Positions 1,402 to 21,063 of a stretch of DNA of 22,130 nt are shown here, one piece after another. The stretch spans positions 1 through 22,130 of IMG/VR virus record IMGVR_UViG_3300005613_000445; one strand, 5' to 3'. The notes under the pieces were generated by a model. The model worked only from the letters and a program-made list of their open reading frames with translations. It was not told the DNA's origin and made no database searches. The stretch comes from a virus. Position 1 is the first letter of the stretch. The number at the start of each line of letters is the position of its first letter. The translations under genes and the position numbers were made by a program.

Positions 1402-1635
1402 TCATTCTATATATTGTAAAAGTCTATAGATTATAGCTATTAATACACCTTTTGACAAATCACCAAGTACAATTTCTTTATTCTTATCAAGATTTATATA
1501 TGATCCTCTACTACTTATACACATATTTACGCCGTTAGGCATATTTGCATCAGATGACATTGCAAATACATCATTATTTATTATAATTGTGTATCTATCA
1601 ACAGTTTTATCACCATTATCATAAACTTTTAGCAT
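1402..1635 (-). CDS. Conserved phage protein of unknown function (VYDNGxKTxDRYT type)
   Basis: 77 residues from the ATG at 1635, which follows GAGGGGG at a 4-nt spacing. A longer in-frame start at 1659 has no such site. The opening VYDNGDKTVDRYTIII followed by NDVFAMSSDANMPNG is a pattern I recognise from many phage early regions, where it is annotated as a conserved hypothetical. The start overlaps the end of the upstream 53-residue gene by 7 bp, so translation is probably coupled. The biochemical role is unknown. Confidence 0.8.
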   Translation of the reverse strand: MLKVYDNGDKTVDRYTIIINNDVFAMSSDANMPNGVNMCISSRGSYINLDKNKEIVLGDLSKGVLIAIIYRLLQYIE

Positions 1636-1790
1636 TTTACCCCCTCTGATTTTGCCCAACTATAAAGACCTTCATCATTTAATACCCACATTTCACGTTC
1701 TTTGTCATTTAATTTACAGTTTGGACAAACTTTTAAAATACATTTACTAAGTTCATCTCTGTTTTCCCTAATAAAGTCCCTCATTCTCAT
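1629..1790 (-). CDS. Short conserved-type phage protein with CxxC
   Basis: 53 residues: starts MRMRDFIRENRDELSKCI, with the motif CPNCK near residue 22 and a tryptophan-containing tail. GGAGG lies 6 nt from the ATG. Its ATGA start overlaps the stop of the upstream repeat gene, and its own end overlaps the next gene, so it sits in a translationally coupled chain. Short proteins opening with this MRDFI-x-ENR pattern are common in phage early regions. Function unknown. Confidence 0.75.
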   Translation of the reverse strand: MRMRDFIRENRDELSKCILKVCPNCKLNDKEREMWVLNDEGLYSWAKSEGVKC

Positions 1791-2257
1791 ACTACACCTC
1801 CTTTTACCTCAGCACTTAAGTCCTTGCAATAACGCCTTAAACGATAAGCCCATTCTGGTTCTTCACAGGCTTTAGCCTCAGCTAATTCTTTAGCCTTGAT
1901 ACTTAAGTCCTTGCAATAACGCCTTAAACGAAAAGCATATTCTGGATCTTCACAGGCTTTAGCCTCAGCTAAGGATTTAGTCTCAGCACTTAAGCCCTTA
2001 CAATCTTTCCTTAGATAATAAGCCCATTTTGAGGATTCACAGGCTTTAGCTTCAGCTAACTCTTTAACTTTAGTACTTAAGCCCTTACAATCTTTCCTTA
2101 GATGATAAGCCCATTCTGGTACTACCAGATAAAATACTTCAGATAATGGTGTACTATCTGATATGTCTGATAACTTTTTCAGCCCTCTTATGCAACCGTA
2201 TTCACACCAGTCATGGGGATTATCCTTGAATATACACCTCATTTCTCCAACTCTCAT
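1787..2257 (-). CDS. 29-residue-repeat protein, paralog 3 (four units)
   Basis: 156 residues from the ATG at 2257, with GGAGG 6 nt upstream. The ORF extends to 2284 but that start lacks a site. The N-terminal block is shared with the genes at 1-254 and 473-850. Four units begin at residues 48, 77, 106 and 135 with a strict 29-residue period (WAYxLRxxCKxLS...KxLAEAKACE). Units 3 and 4 resemble each other most (RLRRYCKDLS), suggesting local duplication. The last unit ends early in KGGVV, and the stop overlaps the next gene's start in ATGA. Function unknown. Confidence 0.82.
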   Translation of the reverse strand: MRVGEMRCIFKDNPHDWCEYGCIRGLKKLSDISDSTPLSEVFYLVVPEWAYHLRKDCKGLSTKVKELAEAKACESSKWAYYLRKDCKGLSAETKSLAEAKACEDPEYAFRLRRYCKDLSIKAKELAEAKACEEPEWAYRLRRYCKDLSAEVKGGVV

Positions 2258-2284
2258 GCTATACCTCCTTATTTTGTTTTGCAT

Positions 2285-2905
2285 TTAAATTGGTCTAAGA
2301 TAAATAGTGAAGTTAAGATAAAACTGAGATGTTGATGTGATTGCAAATATATAATCGTACATATCATTTATAGTATCTAACTCTAATTCCTGCTCAATAG
2401 CTTTTATAACTTTTTCTGGTGTGTCATTCATTCCTCTATGGAATCCGTTCTGGAATATACTACACAACATATCATCATCTTCAAAGCAATTAAATCCTTC
2501 ATTTTCTATTAAAGGTATTGTCCATTCAAACACCGCTTTATTGCAATCGTTTTTATATTCGTCTATTATATACTCAATTTCATCCTCACAACATTCTTTA
2601 CACATATAGCCATCATTTGTAATAAGATAACTTGGTTGCCATCCATAATTTGTTGGACTTGTTCTAATAGCTTTATAGCATACACAACAATCTGTCCATT
2701 CATCATGCCAGCTTATTTCTACATTATAGTTATCTTCTATAAAATCAAATATATTATGAAGTCGTAAGTCTCCATCTTCCCTTCTGACCCACCAGTCCCC
2801 AATTAATAATGGTTTGTCTTCATATTCGGTTTCTTCATAGTAATTAAATTCTGGGATATTTCTATGACAGTAATCAATAATTTTATCCAAATCCGGCTTT
2901 TTCAT
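2285..2905 (-). CDS. Conserved phage protein with treble-clef-like zinc site
   Basis: 206 residues. The central block has WHDEWTDCCVCYKAIRTSPTNYGWQPSY split for reading here as CCVCYKAIRTSP, then YMCKECCEDEI, giving two CxxC pairs that probably bind one zinc. The C-terminal half has NGFHRGMNDTPEKV. The combination of a DEWT-C-x2-C-x2-AIRTSP block and GFHxGxNDxPxK is a conserved-hypothetical family I recognise from phages and conjugative elements. Its biochemical role is not known to me. GGAGG precedes the ATG and the gene is in the same tight minus-strand run. Confidence 0.8.
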   Translation of the reverse strand: MKKPDLDKIIDYCHRNIPEFNYYEETEYEDKPLLIGDWWVRREDGDLRLHNIFDFIEDNYNVEISWHDEWTDCCVCYKAIRTSPTNYGWQPSYLITNDGYMCKECCEDEIEYIIDEYKNDCNKAVFEWTIPLIENEGFNCFEDDDMLCSIFQNGFHRGMNDTPEKVIKAIEQELELDTINDMYDYIFAITSTSQFYLNFTIYLRPI

Positions 2906-2920
2906 GCTACCTCCTTTTAA

Positions 2921-3097
2921 TTAATTATTTTCTATATAATTTATCTGTATAAATTCATGTCCAAGATAGTCCGTTTTATATAATTCTATTTCTGGTATAA
3001 TACCAATAGATCTGTTTGAAAATATTTCAAGTTCCCCGTTTTTTGTGTTGGCTTCAAGTATTCCATCTATTATTTCTTTTAATTCCAAAAGTGTCAT
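2921..3097 (-). CDS. Hypothetical small protein
   Basis: 58 residues from the ATG at 3097, which has an AAGGAG site. The longer ORF upstream to 3235 would overlap most of the 3' end of the larger neighbouring gene and lacks a site. The sequence opens MTLLELKEIIDGILEAN and continues with GELEIFSNRSIG and HEFIQINYIENN. This resembles small phage proteins with a helix followed by a beta sheet. No function can be given. Confidence 0.7.
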   Translation of the reverse strand: MTLLELKEIIDGILEANTKNGELEIFSNRSIGIIPEIELYKTDYLGHEFIQINYIENN

Positions 3098-3122
3098 ATT
3101 CCTACTCCTTTTTATAGTTTGT

Positions 3123-3893
3123 TTAGGTAGTAATTGATTGATCTGATATCCAGGAAGTAGTACCATAAACATCTTGCATTGAATAAGATTGTTCAATATC
3201 TGCAACAATATCAATAGTATCATATTTTGTTTCACCAGATATTTTCAGCTTCATATTTCTATAGGTGGTTTTTTCAAATACCGAACCAGCCCCTTGAAAA
3301 GATGAAAAAAAGCCAAATTGTGTGCCTTTTGGAATATAAATATATTCAGCACCATTGTTTAATTTTTTCCTTAAGTCAACAAGAGTTTCAACGTCTGTTT
3401 TAAATGCAAAACAAAATAATGATCCTCCATATGCACCATTATAAAACTCGAACTCGTAATCTTTTCGTTTTACTCCTGTTTTTACCCTTTTGAAAACATC
3501 TGAAAGATAACTTTCTGGTTCTTTCGGATTATCGAAGGAGTTGCAGCAATCATAATTGCTATATACAACAAGTATGGCCGTTAAATCAGGAGTATTATTC
3601 AACAACTGTTTAAAATTAAAATCAATACAAACATAGCCCAGAAATTTATCCACAAATTCATCATAATCACAACTAAGGTCAAATTCATTATAAACATTAT
3701 TCAAAAATTCATGTTCCATGTCTGATATATAATCCAGGTTTAAGTCAAGAAGTTCATCATAAAATGTATGAATTCCCTCTTCACCTGATATAATTTTCAT
3801 AACATCCTCTTTTGATAGATAGTCCCTTTGGTCCCAGTAAAATTCTGGTTGATTATTTTCAATATAATCAATTATGTCTTGTTCTTTTTCCAT
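3123..3893 (-). CDS. Hypothetical phage protein (IPKGTQFGFFSSFQG motif)
   Basis: 256 residues. The N-terminal half is acidic and helical (DIIDYIENNQPEFYWDQ). The C-terminal half is beta-rich and contains the block YIPKGTQFGFFSSFQGAGS, then TIDIVADIEQSYSMQDVYG. I recall similar IPKGT/FSSFQGxGS blocks in conserved phage proteins of unknown function. GAGGAG lies 8 nt before the ATG and overlaps the end of the upstream gene, so translational coupling is likely. No enzyme motif is evident. Confidence 0.78.
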   Translation of the reverse strand: MEKEQDIIDYIENNQPEFYWDQRDYLSKEDVMKIISGEEGIHTFYDELLDLNLDYISDMEHEFLNNVYNEFDLSCDYDEFVDKFLGYVCIDFNFKQLLNNTPDLTAILVVYSNYDCCNSFDNPKEPESYLSDVFKRVKTGVKRKDYEFEFYNGAYGGSLFCFAFKTDVETLVDLRKKLNNGAEYIYIPKGTQFGFFSSFQGAGSVFEKTTYRNMKLKISGETKYDTIDIVADIEQSYSMQDVYGTTSWISDQSITT

Positions 3894-3896
3894 AGT

Positions 3897-4436
3897 TTAA
3901 TCTCCTCTTTTTTTAAGATAATCCGACACGTTATAGATGTTATAAGAACATGGGGAATAGTCATCAAACCAATCTTTCCCTAAACAATATGTTGGTACAC
4001 CATTTTCAATTGGTGAATCTAAATCTCCAGCACCAGGGCAACAAGGGCTGCAGAATTTTGTGTATGTCATGAATGGCGACTTTAAAACATACAGACCTAA
4101 GTCTGTCGTTTCTATAATATATCCATCCATCTCATACAAATAACAATCTTGATCTTCCTCATAGTTTTCAGATATACACTCTTCTATATCTTCTTCTATA
4201 GAGGCCATTGTGTCATCCGATAGCGATATATCATTCGTTACTTCTAATATTTCATTAATTATTTCTTTTTTTCTATCTTCAATATAAGATTCATATGACA
4301 GATTTCTTCCATGCATATAAATGTCATTAGAAGCATCCGGCGATACAGAATTGTATCCTATAACACCATACCTTATTCCTGCATCCTTGTCCATATTCGC
4401 TTTACCTAATCCATAATCAATTCCAATATATTCCAT
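3897..4436 (-). CDS. Conserved phage protein of unknown function (FCSPCxPGAGxLDSP family)
   Basis: 179 residues. Diagnostic blocks are GLGKANMDKDAGIRYGVIG near the N-terminus, YIIETTDLGLYVLKSPF in the middle, then KFCSPCCPGAGDLDSP and YCLGKDWF at the C-terminus. This block order matches a protein widely found in phages and mobile elements as a conserved hypothetical. The cysteines could bind metal. GGAGG lies upstream of the ATG and the gene is directly followed by the 256-residue gene. No function can be asserted. Confidence 0.85.
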   Translation of the reverse strand: MEYIGIDYGLGKANMDKDAGIRYGVIGYNSVSPDASNDIYMHGRNLSYESYIEDRKKEIINEILEVTNDISLSDDTMASIEEDIEECISENYEEDQDCYLYEMDGYIIETTDLGLYVLKSPFMTYTKFCSPCCPGAGDLDSPIENGVPTYCLGKDWFDDYSPCSYNIYNVSDYLKKRGD

Positions 4437-4454
4437 GATTATACCTCCTTTGTT

Positions 4455-4637
4455 TTATTTGTCTCTTAATCTATTTGCACATTTTTGAGAACATGCAAAT
4501 ATAGGCTTACTACGCCAATTAGGTTGCCAGAAAGTATTACACAGTAGTCCACAATAATGACACCTACCAATATGAGAACTATAAGCTCTTATACCACGCT
4601 TCCATCCGTGTGTACCCTTCTTTTCTTTTTGGATCAT
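4455..4637 (-). CDS. Small zinc-finger-like protein
   Basis: 60 residues, strongly basic N-terminus (MIQKEKKGTHGWKRGIRAY), then CHYCGLLC and ACSQKCANRL. The CxxC plus CxxxC spacing suggests a single zinc site and nucleic-acid binding, by inference only. GGAGGG precedes the ATG. It is part of the minus-strand operon, 18 bp from the next gene. Confidence 0.72.
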   Translation of the reverse strand: MIQKEKKGTHGWKRGIRAYSSHIGRCHYCGLLCNTFWQPNWRSKPIFACSQKCANRLRDK

Positions 4638-4661
4638 ACTCCCTCCTTTGTTTTTTGTTGG

Positions 4662-4940
4662 TTATCTTTCCAGAACCATTCTATCTTCAAAGTCAATGGT
4701 TTTGTCTTTATAATTAACAAACCATTCAAAGTTTTTCTGAAATACATAGAATCCTAAATTAAATTGATCGCTTGTTTGATTCATTCTCTTTTTTGTCGTG
4801 CTGGTACGATAACCACCACTATCAAGACTAATCTTTTTGTTGTTAAATTCAACCACGTCTGTCCAGTGGTATTTTACACAAGTCATATCATTATCTCGAT
4901 AAACTACTGTTTTGTGGCTGCCTATTTGTGTTCGTTTCAT
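4662..4940 (-). CDS. Conserved phage protein (SGGYRTxTTKxRMNQ family)
   Basis: 92 residues. The block SLDSGGYRTSTTKKRMNQ followed by FNLGFYVFQKNFEWFV is a well-conserved signature of a small phage protein seen across many host groups, where it is annotated only as hypothetical. The N-terminal strand-rich part (TVVYRDNDMTCVKYHWTDVV) also fits. A strong AAAGGAGG site precedes the ATG. It overlaps the 3' end of the upstream 99-residue gene by 50 bp, a long overlap. Function unknown. Confidence 0.85.
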   Translation of the reverse strand: MKRTQIGSHKTVVYRDNDMTCVKYHWTDVVEFNNKKISLDSGGYRTSTTKKRMNQTSDQFNLGFYVFQKNFEWFVNYKDKTIDFEDRMVLER

Positions 4941-5190
4941 TCTTTACCTCCTTTTGTTTCGGTTTTAGTTGTGAATCTTCCATTTCTAAATTCCAAACAG
5001 GGCTATTATACATAGCGTATATATCTTTTGTGGCTTGATCATACCCTTTTGCGCCTCTTGGATATTTTCCTGGCATTGGGGTGATGTCATTTCCGTCACA
5101 AATTAATTTGCCAGACCTTAGGTAGATGTTGCGCCTGTAGTCTTTGCGTTTGCCATCACATACACATAGTATGCTTGCTAATTTTTTCAT
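4891..5190 (-). CDS. Hypothetical protein
   Basis: 99 residues with a GAGGAGGG site before the ATG. The N-terminal half has SILCVCDGKRKDYRRNIYL and GKYPRGAKGYDQATKDIY. The C-terminal 30 residues are polar and low in complexity (KPKQKEVKNETNTN) and are encoded where the gene overlaps the start of the next one, so this tail may be unimportant. No domain recognised. Confidence 0.72.
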   Translation of the reverse strand: MKKLASILCVCDGKRKDYRRNIYLRSGKLICDGNDITPMPGKYPRGAKGYDQATKDIYAMYNSPVWNLEMEDSQLKPKQKEVKNETNTNRQPQNSSLSR

Positions 5191-16311: not shown

Positions 16312-17544
16312 ATGGCAGTAAAACGAAGCGCGTTTACTGAAGCAATGAAAGATGATTTATATTCGTATTTTTGGGAGAGGTATCCTCAAGAAGAGTCAGT
16401 ATGGGAAAGCTTGTTTGAGATTGTAGATTCAGATTCGGCGTATACCCAATTTACCAGTGCGATAGGCTTGGGTATACTTTTGGAGAAGCCTGAAGGTGAG
16501 ACAATACAGGCTGAAGAGCCTATGGAAAGCTATACCATAATTTGTAAGAATCGAACGTTTGCAAGGAAGGTTCCGTTTTCTTATGAGTCTGTTCAGGATT
16601 CTAAGAAAGGCAACCTGTTGCAGGCTACAGTTTCAACTTGGGGTGAAGCCGTGGTTAGAACTAAAGAAACTTTTTATTCTAACATTTTTAATAAAGGTAC
16701 TCTAACCGCAGGGGATGATATTTTTAACAACAGTATTACTGGTGTTATATCAGACCCTTCTGGTGACTTTATTTATGATGGTCTACCTTTCTTTGATACG
16801 GTACATCCTGATAGAGTTGGGAATACATATTCAAATATAGAGGCGTCAAGAAGTCTGACTCATACTAATCTTGAGTCAACCTATTTGACATACACGTCAA
16901 CTAATAACAGGGACGAGCGTGGTAATGTGTTTACGCTTGTACCTGATGTACTCCTGTTTAACCCTGCTCTTAAGTTTACAGCACAGGTTATCCTGAATAC
17001 ATCTGCTATTCCTGGAAGTCAGGACAATGATGTTAATGTTCTGTCCAGTATTGTTGAGCCACAGGAATGGTCCTATATTGATGATACCAATGCTTGGTTC
17101 CTCGGTAAAAGGAAAATGGGGCTTATGGCTACAAACCGGGAGGATGTAAATCTAGACTTTTGGCAGGATGAGGAGAATTTAACTTATTATGCCAGAATTA
17201 TATGCAGGTATGGCGGGACTCCTACAAATTGGAGATTGAAAAGCCAATGTCTCCCTACATTGCAAAGTGTAGAAAACAACTGGGTGAATTGCTGGGAAGT
17301 CCATGATATGGATAATCAGCAGCCAAGCTTGGATAGAAATATCCTTGAAGGTTCAACGACTAATTTCCGATTCTTAACAGGTAAAGCTGAAGAAAGTAAT
17401 GAAAACACGAGTGCCCAGCTCTCTATTGCTGCATAGAGATGAAGATATAGTCTGAACTATATGGTAACATATAGAAATAAAGTTTAAATGACTTTATGAT
17501 AACAATAGTATGATTGGTTTGCTAACAACCAAGCTGCTGCTTAG
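16312..17544 (+). CDS. Major capsid protein, gene split by a group I intron
   Basis: An HK97-fold-type major capsid protein of the Mu gpT-like kind, judged from SLTHTNLESTYLTYTSTN, DVLLFNPALKFTAQVILN, LDFWQDEENLTYYARIICRYG and the gene order. A strong GAGGGGGTGA site precedes ATG 16312. The uninterrupted ORF runs to TAG 17436, but everything after about 17232 is intron sequence. Favoured product: exon 1 at 16312-17232 joined to exon 2 at 17518-17544, ending RYGGTPTNW-FANNQAAA, about 315 residues. That W-containing short tail is typical of the family, whereas the read-through tail is not. Confidence 0.88.
17233..17517 (+). ncRNA. Group I self-splicing intron in the capsid gene (IA-like, no ORF)
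   Basis: The four conserved core elements are present in order: P, GAATTGCTGGGAA (17286); Q, AATCAGCAGCCAAGC (17314); R, GTTCAACGACTAA (17351); S, AAGATATAGTC (17442). Stems: candidate P1 ATTGG/CCAAT (17228-32/17244-48), P2 CTACA/TGTAG, P3 CTGGGTG/TGCCCAG, P5 TCCAT/ATGGA, a P6 hairpin GGATA-GAAA-TATCC, P7 GACTA/TAGTC, P8 TCTCTAT/ATAGAGA, P9 CTATATG-GTAA-CATATAG, P9.1 ATAAAGT/ACTTTAT. Extra sequence between R and P3' suggests subgroup IA. Boundaries are uncertain: ATTGG occurs at both ends, and the base facing G17243 is A, not the usual U. An alternative is 17221-17508; both keep frame. Confidence 0.87.
17518..17544 (+). CDS. Major capsid protein exon 2
   Basis: Encodes FANNQAAA followed by TAG, in frame with exon 1 once the intron is removed. 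Only eight residues, so no automatic gene finder would call it. It could begin at TAT 17509 (YDWFANNQAAA) under the alternative splice model. The first bases TTT can pair with the A-run at 17239-17242, just 5' of the guide sequence, as a P10 helix. Confidence 0.72.
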   Translation, partial: FANNQAAA

Positions 17545-17657: not shown

Positions 17658-18470
17658 ATGATACTAAATGCAACAAAGGTTTCTGGAGAATCTGTGGATA
17701 TAAGTCTATTGGGTTCTCCAGGATTCAGATCTTTAATAAGGGTAGAGTTTATCTGTGATGTTTGTAAAGAGATAATAAGTGTAAGATTGGATACTCTTTT
17801 AAGAACTAATTCTATAGAAAAGCAAGTTTGTGAAGAATGTAAGAAAAAAATAAGATATCCTAATGGTAGAGTATCTGCAAAAGAACGTACAGCAAAATAT
17901 AAAAGAAAGCATGAAGTAGCAAAATCTTTAAAAAAGTATAAAGGTTTAGAAGGAATAGATTATGTAACTTGTAAGATTTGTGGTAAGCGAGGGTTATACA
18001 TAGACAGTAGACATCTTAAAACAAGGCATAATATTACTAAAGAAGAATACCTTGATGAATTTCCAGAAGCGCTCTTAATATCAGAGAAGAAGAAGGAAGC
18101 ACAAGCAAGACCAAAGAATAAGAGTAATTTAGGTAAAAAGTTTTCTAAGAAACATAGAGAAAAGATATCTCTTGCTAGAACTGGTGGAGTTCCTTGGACA
18201 GAAAGAGAGTTAGATAAATATGTTGAGTATAAGGCTAAGGTACGACATCTAACCAACCAGAATTTTTGTGAGTATTATGACCAGATAAATCCTGACAAGC
18301 TTCCACGAGGATTCAGGGACTATCATTTGGATCATATTTATCCTGTAATAGCAGGATTTAAGAATGGAATTGAACCAGAGATAATTGCAGCACCTAATAA
18401 TTTACAGATGCTATATTGGCGAGATAATTTAAAAAAAGCTGGGGGTGAGTACTGCGCATCTCCTGACTAA
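17658..18470 (+). CDS. Free-standing HNH homing endonuclease with NUMOD3 and zinc fingers
   Basis: 270 residues; AGGAGG precedes the ATG. Domains in order: a Cys4 ribbon (C33, C36, C58, C61); a C2H2-like finger (C105, C108, H119, H124) of the CKICGK...HLKT type; a NUMOD3 DNA-binding motif (GKKFSKKHREKISLA, 159-173); and a C-terminal HNH nuclease (YHLDHIYPV 222-230, PNNLQML 246-252, N257). Such enzymes cut intronless or gene-less alleles to spread themselves. It lies 113 bp after capsid exon 2 and may provide the cleavage that mobilises the intron, but that pairing is inference. Confidence 0.9.
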   Translation: MILNATKVSGESVDISLLGSPGFRSLIRVEFICDVCKEIISVRLDTLLRTNSIEKQVCEECKKKIRYPNGRVSAKERTAKYKRKHEVAKSLKKYKGLEGIDYVTCKICGKRGLYIDSRHLKTRHNITKEEYLDEFPEALLISEKKKEAQARPKNKSNLGKKFSKKHREKISLARTGGVPWTERELDKYVEYKAKVRHLTNQNFCEYYDQINPDKLPRGFRDYHLDHIYPVIAGFKNGIEPEIIAAPNNLQMLYWRDNLKKAGGEYCASPD

Positions 18471-19914: not shown

Positions 19915-21063
19915 ATGCGTAAAAAATATACATATGAGTTTGTTAAGAGTGAATTTGAGAAAGAAGGCTATACGTTATTATCTAAAGAATATAAAGATTC
20001 CAAATCAAAATTGAAGTATCGGTGTCCAAAAAATCATCAAGGTCGCATATCTTATAGTAGTTTTCAGCAAGGGCATAGATGTATAGAATGTGCTGGTCTT
20101 AAAAAGCATACATATGAGTTCATTAAGAGCCAGTTTGAAAAAGAAGGGTATCAGCTTTTATCTACAGAATATGTGAATAACAGGCAGAAACTAAAAGTTA
20201 AATGTGACAAAGGTCATACTTACTTAGTAGCATATCGTGATTTTGGTTATGGTAAAAGATGTAAGCTGTGTTTTTATGAGCGTAATAAGTTTTCATATGA
20301 ATTTGTCAAGAGCCAGTTTGAGAAAGAAGGATATACGTTATTATCTAAAGAATATAAAGATTCCAAATCAAAATTAAAATATCTTTGTCCAAAAGGGCAT
20401 ATAGGATCTACAACCTTTCATAGTTTTAGAGAGGGTACTAGGTGTTCAATATGCTATAGAGAAAATATCTTTGGGGAAAACAGTACAAATTGGAAGGGTG
20501 GAGTGACAAAATTAAAGATAGCACTATATGATACATATGCTCATAAATTAGATTGGTGTGAGGAAGTACGAAGAGACCCTAATAATTATGATTATCTTCA
20601 AGTTAGATGTAAATTTTGTGATAATTGGTTTGCTCCTACTATTAGAAATGTTCAAGCTAGGATAGATGTTATAGAAGGTAGAATAGGAGGCGGATGTAAC
20701 TTATATTGCTCTACCAAATGTAGAAAGAGTTGTTGCTTGTATGGGCAACAGAAGTATCCTAAAGGTATTAACAAATACGAAAACTATAGAGCTGAAGTTA
20801 AGTACATAAGCAATGTAAACTTTCGTAAGTTTTATTGGCAAATAAACCCAGAGAATTTAAAAAGAGGCTATAATTTTTATCATTTAGACCATATTTATCC
20901 AGTAATAGAAGGATTTAATAATGGAATACCTCCAGAAGTACTTGCAAATCCAAATAATTTACAGATGCTATGGTGTTCAGATAATTCAGAAAAAAGTGAT
21001 AAATTAAATATAACAAAAAAAGAGTTGTATGATGGGTATAATAAGTTTAATGAGGTGAATTAA
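19915..21063 (+). CDS. HNH homing endonuclease with three zinc-ribbon modules
   Basis: 382 residues; GGAGGAG precedes the ATG. Three tandem modules of about 60 residues (5-60, 66-119, 127-180) each read YEFxKSxFEKEGYxLLS, then C-x3-GH-like, and C-x2-C, a recombined DUF723-like zinc ribbon used for DNA recognition. A further cysteine-rich region (C232-x2-C235, C261, C265, C269, C273-C274) follows, and a C-terminal HNH (YHLDHIYPV 322-330, PNNLQML 346-352) closely matches the other HNH gene. Modules 1 and 3 are almost identical in DNA. It ends 1 bp before the next ATG. Free-standing, not in an intron as far as visible. Confidence 0.9.
   Translation: MRKKYTYEFVKSEFEKEGYTLLSKEYKDSKSKLKYRCPKNHQGRISYSSFQQGHRCIECAGLKKHTYEFIKSQFEKEGYQLLSTEYVNNRQKLKVKCDKGHTYLVAYRDFGYGKRCKLCFYERNKFSYEFVKSQFEKEGYTLLSKEYKDSKSKLKYLCPKGHIGSTTFHSFREGTRCSICYRENIFGENSTNWKGGVTKLKIALYDTYAHKLDWCEEVRRDPNNYDYLQVRCKFCDNWFAPTIRNVQARIDVIEGRIGGGCNLYCSTKCRKSCCLYGQQKYPKGINKYENYRAEVKYISNVNFRKFYWQINPENLKRGYNFYHLDHIYPVIEGFNNGIPPEVLANPNNLQMLWCSDNSEKSDKLNITKKELYDGYNKFNEVN

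Follow-up and report, generated by a model that had tools for sequence, protein, structure and literature searches.

The window, the whole 22,130-nt stretch of virus DNA analysed here, contains a major capsid gene that follows, in this order, genes for the terminase, the portal, the scaffold and a small head protein. The capsid open reading frame (ORF; 16312-17436, plus strand) appears in the ORF list with 374 codons, as an earlier note on this DNA had reported, and as annotated it comprises 308 real capsid codons followed by 66 codons of intron, not the 70 that the note had counted. Its product has profile matches to PHROG 371 (major head protein) and Pfam PF25209 (Phage_capsid_4), and the capsid profile of the clade matches the solved Mu gpT-type capsid structures 8rkc/8rkx (E 2e-5). 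The gene is interrupted ten codons from its end, and the locus is composed as follows:

16312-17236, plus strand: capsid gene exon 1 (codons 1-308 and base 1 of codon 309); PHROG 371, PF25209, gpT-type profile and gene order
17237-17512, plus strand: group I intron, 276 nt, ORF-less; RF00028, splice pair from the HMM of intronless relatives, covariation in four copies
17513-17544, plus strand: capsid gene exon 2 (YWFANNQAAA and stop, with base 1 of the Y codon in exon 1); aligns with the C-termini of intronless relatives
17658-18470, plus strand: free-standing HNH-type endonuclease gene beside the capsid gene; phrog_5104

Elsewhere in the window, three paralogous genes on the minus strand (3-257, 473-850 and 1787-2284) are internally repetitive, with units of about 23 aa (WAYxLRxDCKxLSxxxKxLAEAKACE).

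Splice junction and fold of the window intron

The junction was located with an HMM built from 17 intronless capsid proteins of IMG/VR relatives, against which 1111 products, combining exon ends at 17215-17255 with intron ends at 17485-17534, were scored with no splicing rule imposed. Removal of 17237-17512 gave the top product (530.1 bits), compared with 519.8 bits for the unspliced product and 514.7 bits for the boundaries proposed in the earlier note (17233-17517, 285 nt), which lie 4-5 nt off. The runner-up junction, shifted by one base, scores just 0.5 bits below the best, so homology alone places the junction within 1-2 bases. Group I rules select the same pair, with exon 1 ending in U (the U.G of P1), the intron ending in G and P10 formed by AUUGG and CCAAU. 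One and the same splice pair follows from the 17 intronless relatives, from the pairing of P1 and P10 and from the U...G rule, and it is also recovered from protein homology alone.

Joining the exons restores the gene as it stands in intronless homologues. The spliced capsid has 318 aa with the C-terminus NWRYWFANNQAAA, that of the relatives being NWRFWYACNVAAA; the product ends in TNWRYWFANNQAAA and that of the intronless locus L002 in TNWRFWYACNVAAA. In the protein, the junction reads ...TNWR-YWFANNQAAA, with the Y codon split between its T and the following AT. The earlier note had drawn the natural C-terminus from a short downstream frame, correctly for the FANNQAAA end, and had read this frame as YDWFANNQAAA, where the mature form is YWFANNQAAA. 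It had likewise foreseen that homology would stop and then resume, which it does at the group I junction, but after residue 308 rather than about 307 and with YWFANNQ rather than FANNQ. Because the exon frame continues through 66 codons of the intron, gene finders yield a false 374-residue protein, and annotation that relies on them gives a capsid with 66 false terminal residues and misses 10 real ones. Structure prediction for an intronless capsid protein with 16 sequences gave a pLDDT of 34, too low to support arguments from structure about the C-terminus.

In the covariance-model search that the earlier note had proposed, the Rfam group I intron model RF00028 aligns from end to end with 17227-17474 at 86.4 bits (E 4.4e-21), far above its gathering score of 50 bits, and it is the sole match in the window above an Rfam gathering score; a TeloSII RNA candidate at 3753-3835 (31.5 bits, gathering score 86) was taken as chance. 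Together with the junction and the covariation described below, this match bears out the claim of a group I intron hidden in the major capsid gene. The core described in the note is also present, namely the P, Q, R and S segments, the helices P3-P9, a GAAA loop (in P6a) and a GTAA loop in P9, and the stop of the false ORF does lie in P8. The ORF list holds none within 17237-17512, in agreement with the note, and hence the window intron encodes no endonuclease. The minimum free energy of the intron has a z-score of -2.9 against dinucleotide shuffles. Its elements, all on the plus strand, are:

17231-17236, plus strand: P1 5' strand GGAGAU, pairing with GUCUCC at 17249-17254; conserved U.G at the 5' splice site
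17244-17248, plus strand: P10 strand of the guide sequence, CCAAU, pairing with AUUGG of exon 2 at 17513-17517; from sequence
17280-17285, plus strand: P3 5' strand, pairing with 17413-17418; RF00028 and covariation
17290-17324, plus strand: P4-P5-P6 core including the P and Q segments; RF00028 and covariation
17358-17362, plus strand: P7 5' strand GACUA (R segment), pairing with UAGUC at 17448-17452 (S segment); invariant in all four copies
17363-17405, plus strand: P7.1/P7.2-type extension; compensatory changes in 7 pairs
17420-17439, plus strand: P8, holding the TAG at 17434-17436 that closes the false 374-codon ORF; ORF list, RF00028 and covariation
17457-17497, plus strand: P9 and P9.1 hairpins; compensatory changes in 8 of 15 pairs

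The P7.1/P7.2-type extension suggests an IA-like subgroup.

The same insertion, in codon and phase, is found in three relatives, L001, L017 and L031 (RF00028 91.9, 86.9 and 84.9 bits). When the four copies are aligned on a group I structure with the P3/P7 pseudoknot, 95.1% of cells are paired, and 35 of 77 pairs are altered on both sides with pairing kept, a count reached by none of 500 shuffles (mean 16.3) and far from the 2-7 obtained with slid structures. The U.G at the 5' splice site and the last intron base G occur in all four copies, and two other P1 pairs show compensatory changes; the P10 pairing is perfect in the window and L001, and weak in L017 and L031. Nucleotide identity between the window and L001 is 86% in the intron and 74% in the exons, as either strong constraint on the structure or a recent transfer would produce. 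The intron differences between these two are spread over codon positions 1, 2 and 3 as 10/10/9, so the tail is free of protein constraint. Additionally, the 66-codon tail, through which the earlier note had considered that relatives might align, is absent from all intronless relatives. On these two grounds the tail is intron and not protein, and a protein domain was rejected. A scan of genome contigs for relatives found none.

A group I intron hotspot in the capsid gene

In this clade, the capsid gene is a hotspot for group I introns. In 15 of 35 capsid loci, 24 introns occupy six exact sites, with at most four per gene; their mapping imposed a U before the intron and a G at its end, the run without this rule being for the window only. 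The sites and their occupants are:

After nt 11: L014, L022, L031, L032, L034, L065
Codon 9: L017, L020, L025
Codon 13: L032
Codon 17/18: L001, L025, L031, L056
Codon 44/45: L031, L032, L065, L066, L067, L069
Codon 309/311 (the 3' site): window, L001, L017, L031

RF00028 scores above its gathering threshold in 13 of the 24. Another five (in L001, L025 and L032, and two in L031) fall below it at 21.8-45.2 bits; four of these contain a full LAGLIDADG ORF and one, the third intron of L031, only a remnant. The remaining six, in L056, L065 (two), L066, L067 and L069, gave no RF00028 match in the Rfam scan and are identified by splice mapping with the profile of the capsid. An S-segment motif is present in the introns of L065, L066, L067 and L069, and the motif search missed L056. 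L066 and L067 are near-copies. Three introns interrupt the gene of L032 and four that of L031 (gene 2476-5111; introns 2487-2760, 2802-3636, 3718-3995, the one with the LAGLIDADG remnant, and 4794-5079). Intron ORFs belong to LAGLIDADG_2 (L001, L025, L031, L032), TnsA-like nuclease (L017, L020, L025, L032) and HNH with NUMOD3 (L022, L034) families.

Capsid genes are as a rule among the most expressed phage genes, and at the level of the clade such a gene tolerates up to four predicted self-splicing introns. The literature searched, with most subscription literature outside its reach, held no report of a four-intron capsid gene or of a capsid gene family with six intron sites; to our knowledge, the three-intron gene of phage Twort is not a capsid gene.

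LittleE and Tuc2009 already provide examples of phage capsid genes with a group I intron, and splicing of the LittleE capsid intron was proven by RT-PCR and protein sequencing (PMC3706429). Like the window, mycobacteriophage LittleE has a group I-type intron in its major capsid gene, an exon 1 that ends in U and an intron that ends in G (PMC3706429). Unlike the LittleE intron, which measures 819 bp, carries a LAGLIDADG ORF on the opposite strand and meets an in-frame stop after 30 bp (PMC11855218), the window intron has 276 nt, is ORF-less, lies near the 3' end of the gene and is open in frame. Phage Twort, too, is credited with a gene that has more than one group I intron, namely three (Landthaler and Shub 1999; cited in PMC6669764); in the relatives of the window there are up to four, in the capsid gene and over six sites. 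In a collection of annotated phages, the highest-scoring counterpart of the window intron, with 74% over part of 182 nt, is an intron by the dUTPase gene of crAss-like phages (BK010471, MT006214), which involves a different gene and is annotated with an HNH endonuclease, whereas the window intron has no ORF. The ShiLan-type insertion in a phage methylase gene is also open in frame and thereby hidden (PMC11855218), and is reported to lack the group I structure that is unambiguous in the window.

Possible mobility and neighbouring endonucleases

In a tree of 32 capsid proteins, intron presence is scattered, and the 3' site needs 2-3 changes of state. L015, with no introns, and L032, with three (1552-4828), have capsid coding sequences that are 96.5% identical (34 of 966 nt differ). 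Of these, 15 fall no more than 35 nt from an occupied site, in flanks that together account for 15% of the gene; a binomial test gives P 4e-5, for a 35-nt limit picked after the positions were seen. The stretch nt 136-541 is free of differences, and another cluster, at nt 895-958, spans the 3' site, where neither gene has an intron. These clusters would be the pattern expected of co-conversion during homing. The introns thus appear to be mobile by homing, perhaps in trans in the case of the ORF-less copy of the window.

The HNH gene beside the capsid gene is a possible in-trans mobility factor. Its orthologue in L001, with 72% identity, occupies the corresponding position, and L031 has a counterpart of partial similarity; both loci bear the intron. 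The cluster over the unoccupied 3' site of L015 and L032 also fits mobilisation of the ORF-less intron by this adjacent gene in trans (collaborative homing). Collaborative homing has reportedly been proposed for the cyanophage psbA intron. However, related HNH genes also stand near the intronless capsid genes of L009, L010 and L016, and the intron-bearing L017 has another nuclease at that place. A strict link between HNH gene and intron was therefore dropped as proof, the association being loose in a comparison of co-occurrence only, and we regard mobilisation by this gene as a tentative addition that is rather less probable than its absence.

A second endonuclease-like gene of the window (19915-21063) has a C-terminal module in common with the HNH gene (57% over 77 aa); the N-termini of the two differ, and there is a CapR domain in one.

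The open frame and alternative readings

In all four introns at the 3' site the exon frame stays open for 66-70 codons, whereas all 20 at the other five sites stop within 0-17. A first-order Markov model gives 66 open codons a chance of 0.2-0.9% per copy. When bases are re-drawn at variable columns, all four frames remain open in 0.3-0.8% of trials, in a simulation that ignores base-pairing constraints and for a frame whose openness had caught attention ahead of the test. The four introns differ in length by amounts that preserve the frame. The two remaining frames of the conserved core contain stops, which makes one of the three insertion phases favourable from the outset. Most group I introns in coding genes have an early in-frame stop that halts the ribosome and protects folding (PMC3073962, PMC3984707). 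Here, with a frame that continues for 66 codons into the ribozyme, splicing may not be efficient while the RNA is being translated.

With fold, covariation, junction and presence/absence polymorphism all observed, the capsid gene of the window almost certainly carries a 276-nt ORF-less group I intron, one member of the six-site hotspot, which would be spliced in vivo to give the mRNA of a 318-residue capsid. The pre-mRNA would fold into the ribozyme, an external guanosine would cut after U17236 at the U.G of P1, the freed exon would attack behind the terminal G17512, and ligation would give an mRNA that encodes the 318-residue protein. Were the tail instead a true C-terminal extension, with an incidental RNA match, the frame open in all four copies despite its low chance in each would be explained. 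This reading deserves almost no credence, as no intronless relative has the tail, differences fall evenly over codon positions, the RNA covariation is strong and the genuine C-terminus lies downstream. Hardly more probable is a decayed intron relic that no longer splices and leaves an extended or defective capsid: introns do decay in this clade, as the ORF remnant in L031 attests, but here the core helices are all intact, the P1 U.G and terminal G are kept in four copies, and an insert that could not be removed from the capsid gene would probably be fatal to the phage.

Taking the window intron, then, as one that splices, selection may still have acted on its open frame, such that ribosomes crossing unspliced RNA would produce a minor 374-aa capsid or tie splicing to translation. 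The contrast between the four open and 20 early-closing introns, the frame-preserving length differences and the rarity of open frames among re-drawn sequences point in this direction. Nevertheless, we consider it unlikely: amino-acid constraint is absent (10/10/9), the simulation has the two limits given above, the tree contains only about three changes of state, and the core stops leave a third of insertion phases favourable from the start. Similarly improbable is the wider scenario in which introns with three nuclease families invaded six fixed points and the frame at the 3' site was kept stop-free, leading to regulated splicing or a minor extended capsid. If true, the stop-free introns would contradict the view that an early ribosome stop suits group I introns of coding genes. 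Twenty introns with an early stop and four open ones in a single gene family offer a natural experiment on whether splicing of a group I intron requires the exclusion of ribosomes.

Some further features accompany the capsid genes of the clade. L001 has a tandem duplication of its first exon (ATGGGTGTTAAACGAAGTGCATTTACAGAGATGTATAAAGAT) at 4070-4166, directly in front of the codon-17 intron, and copy 1 ends in a stop. Downstream of the capsid gene, int-alpA RNA (RF02996) scores above its gathering threshold in L009, L010, L020, L025, L032 and L065, and a HEARO RNA occupies 1967-2158 of L016.
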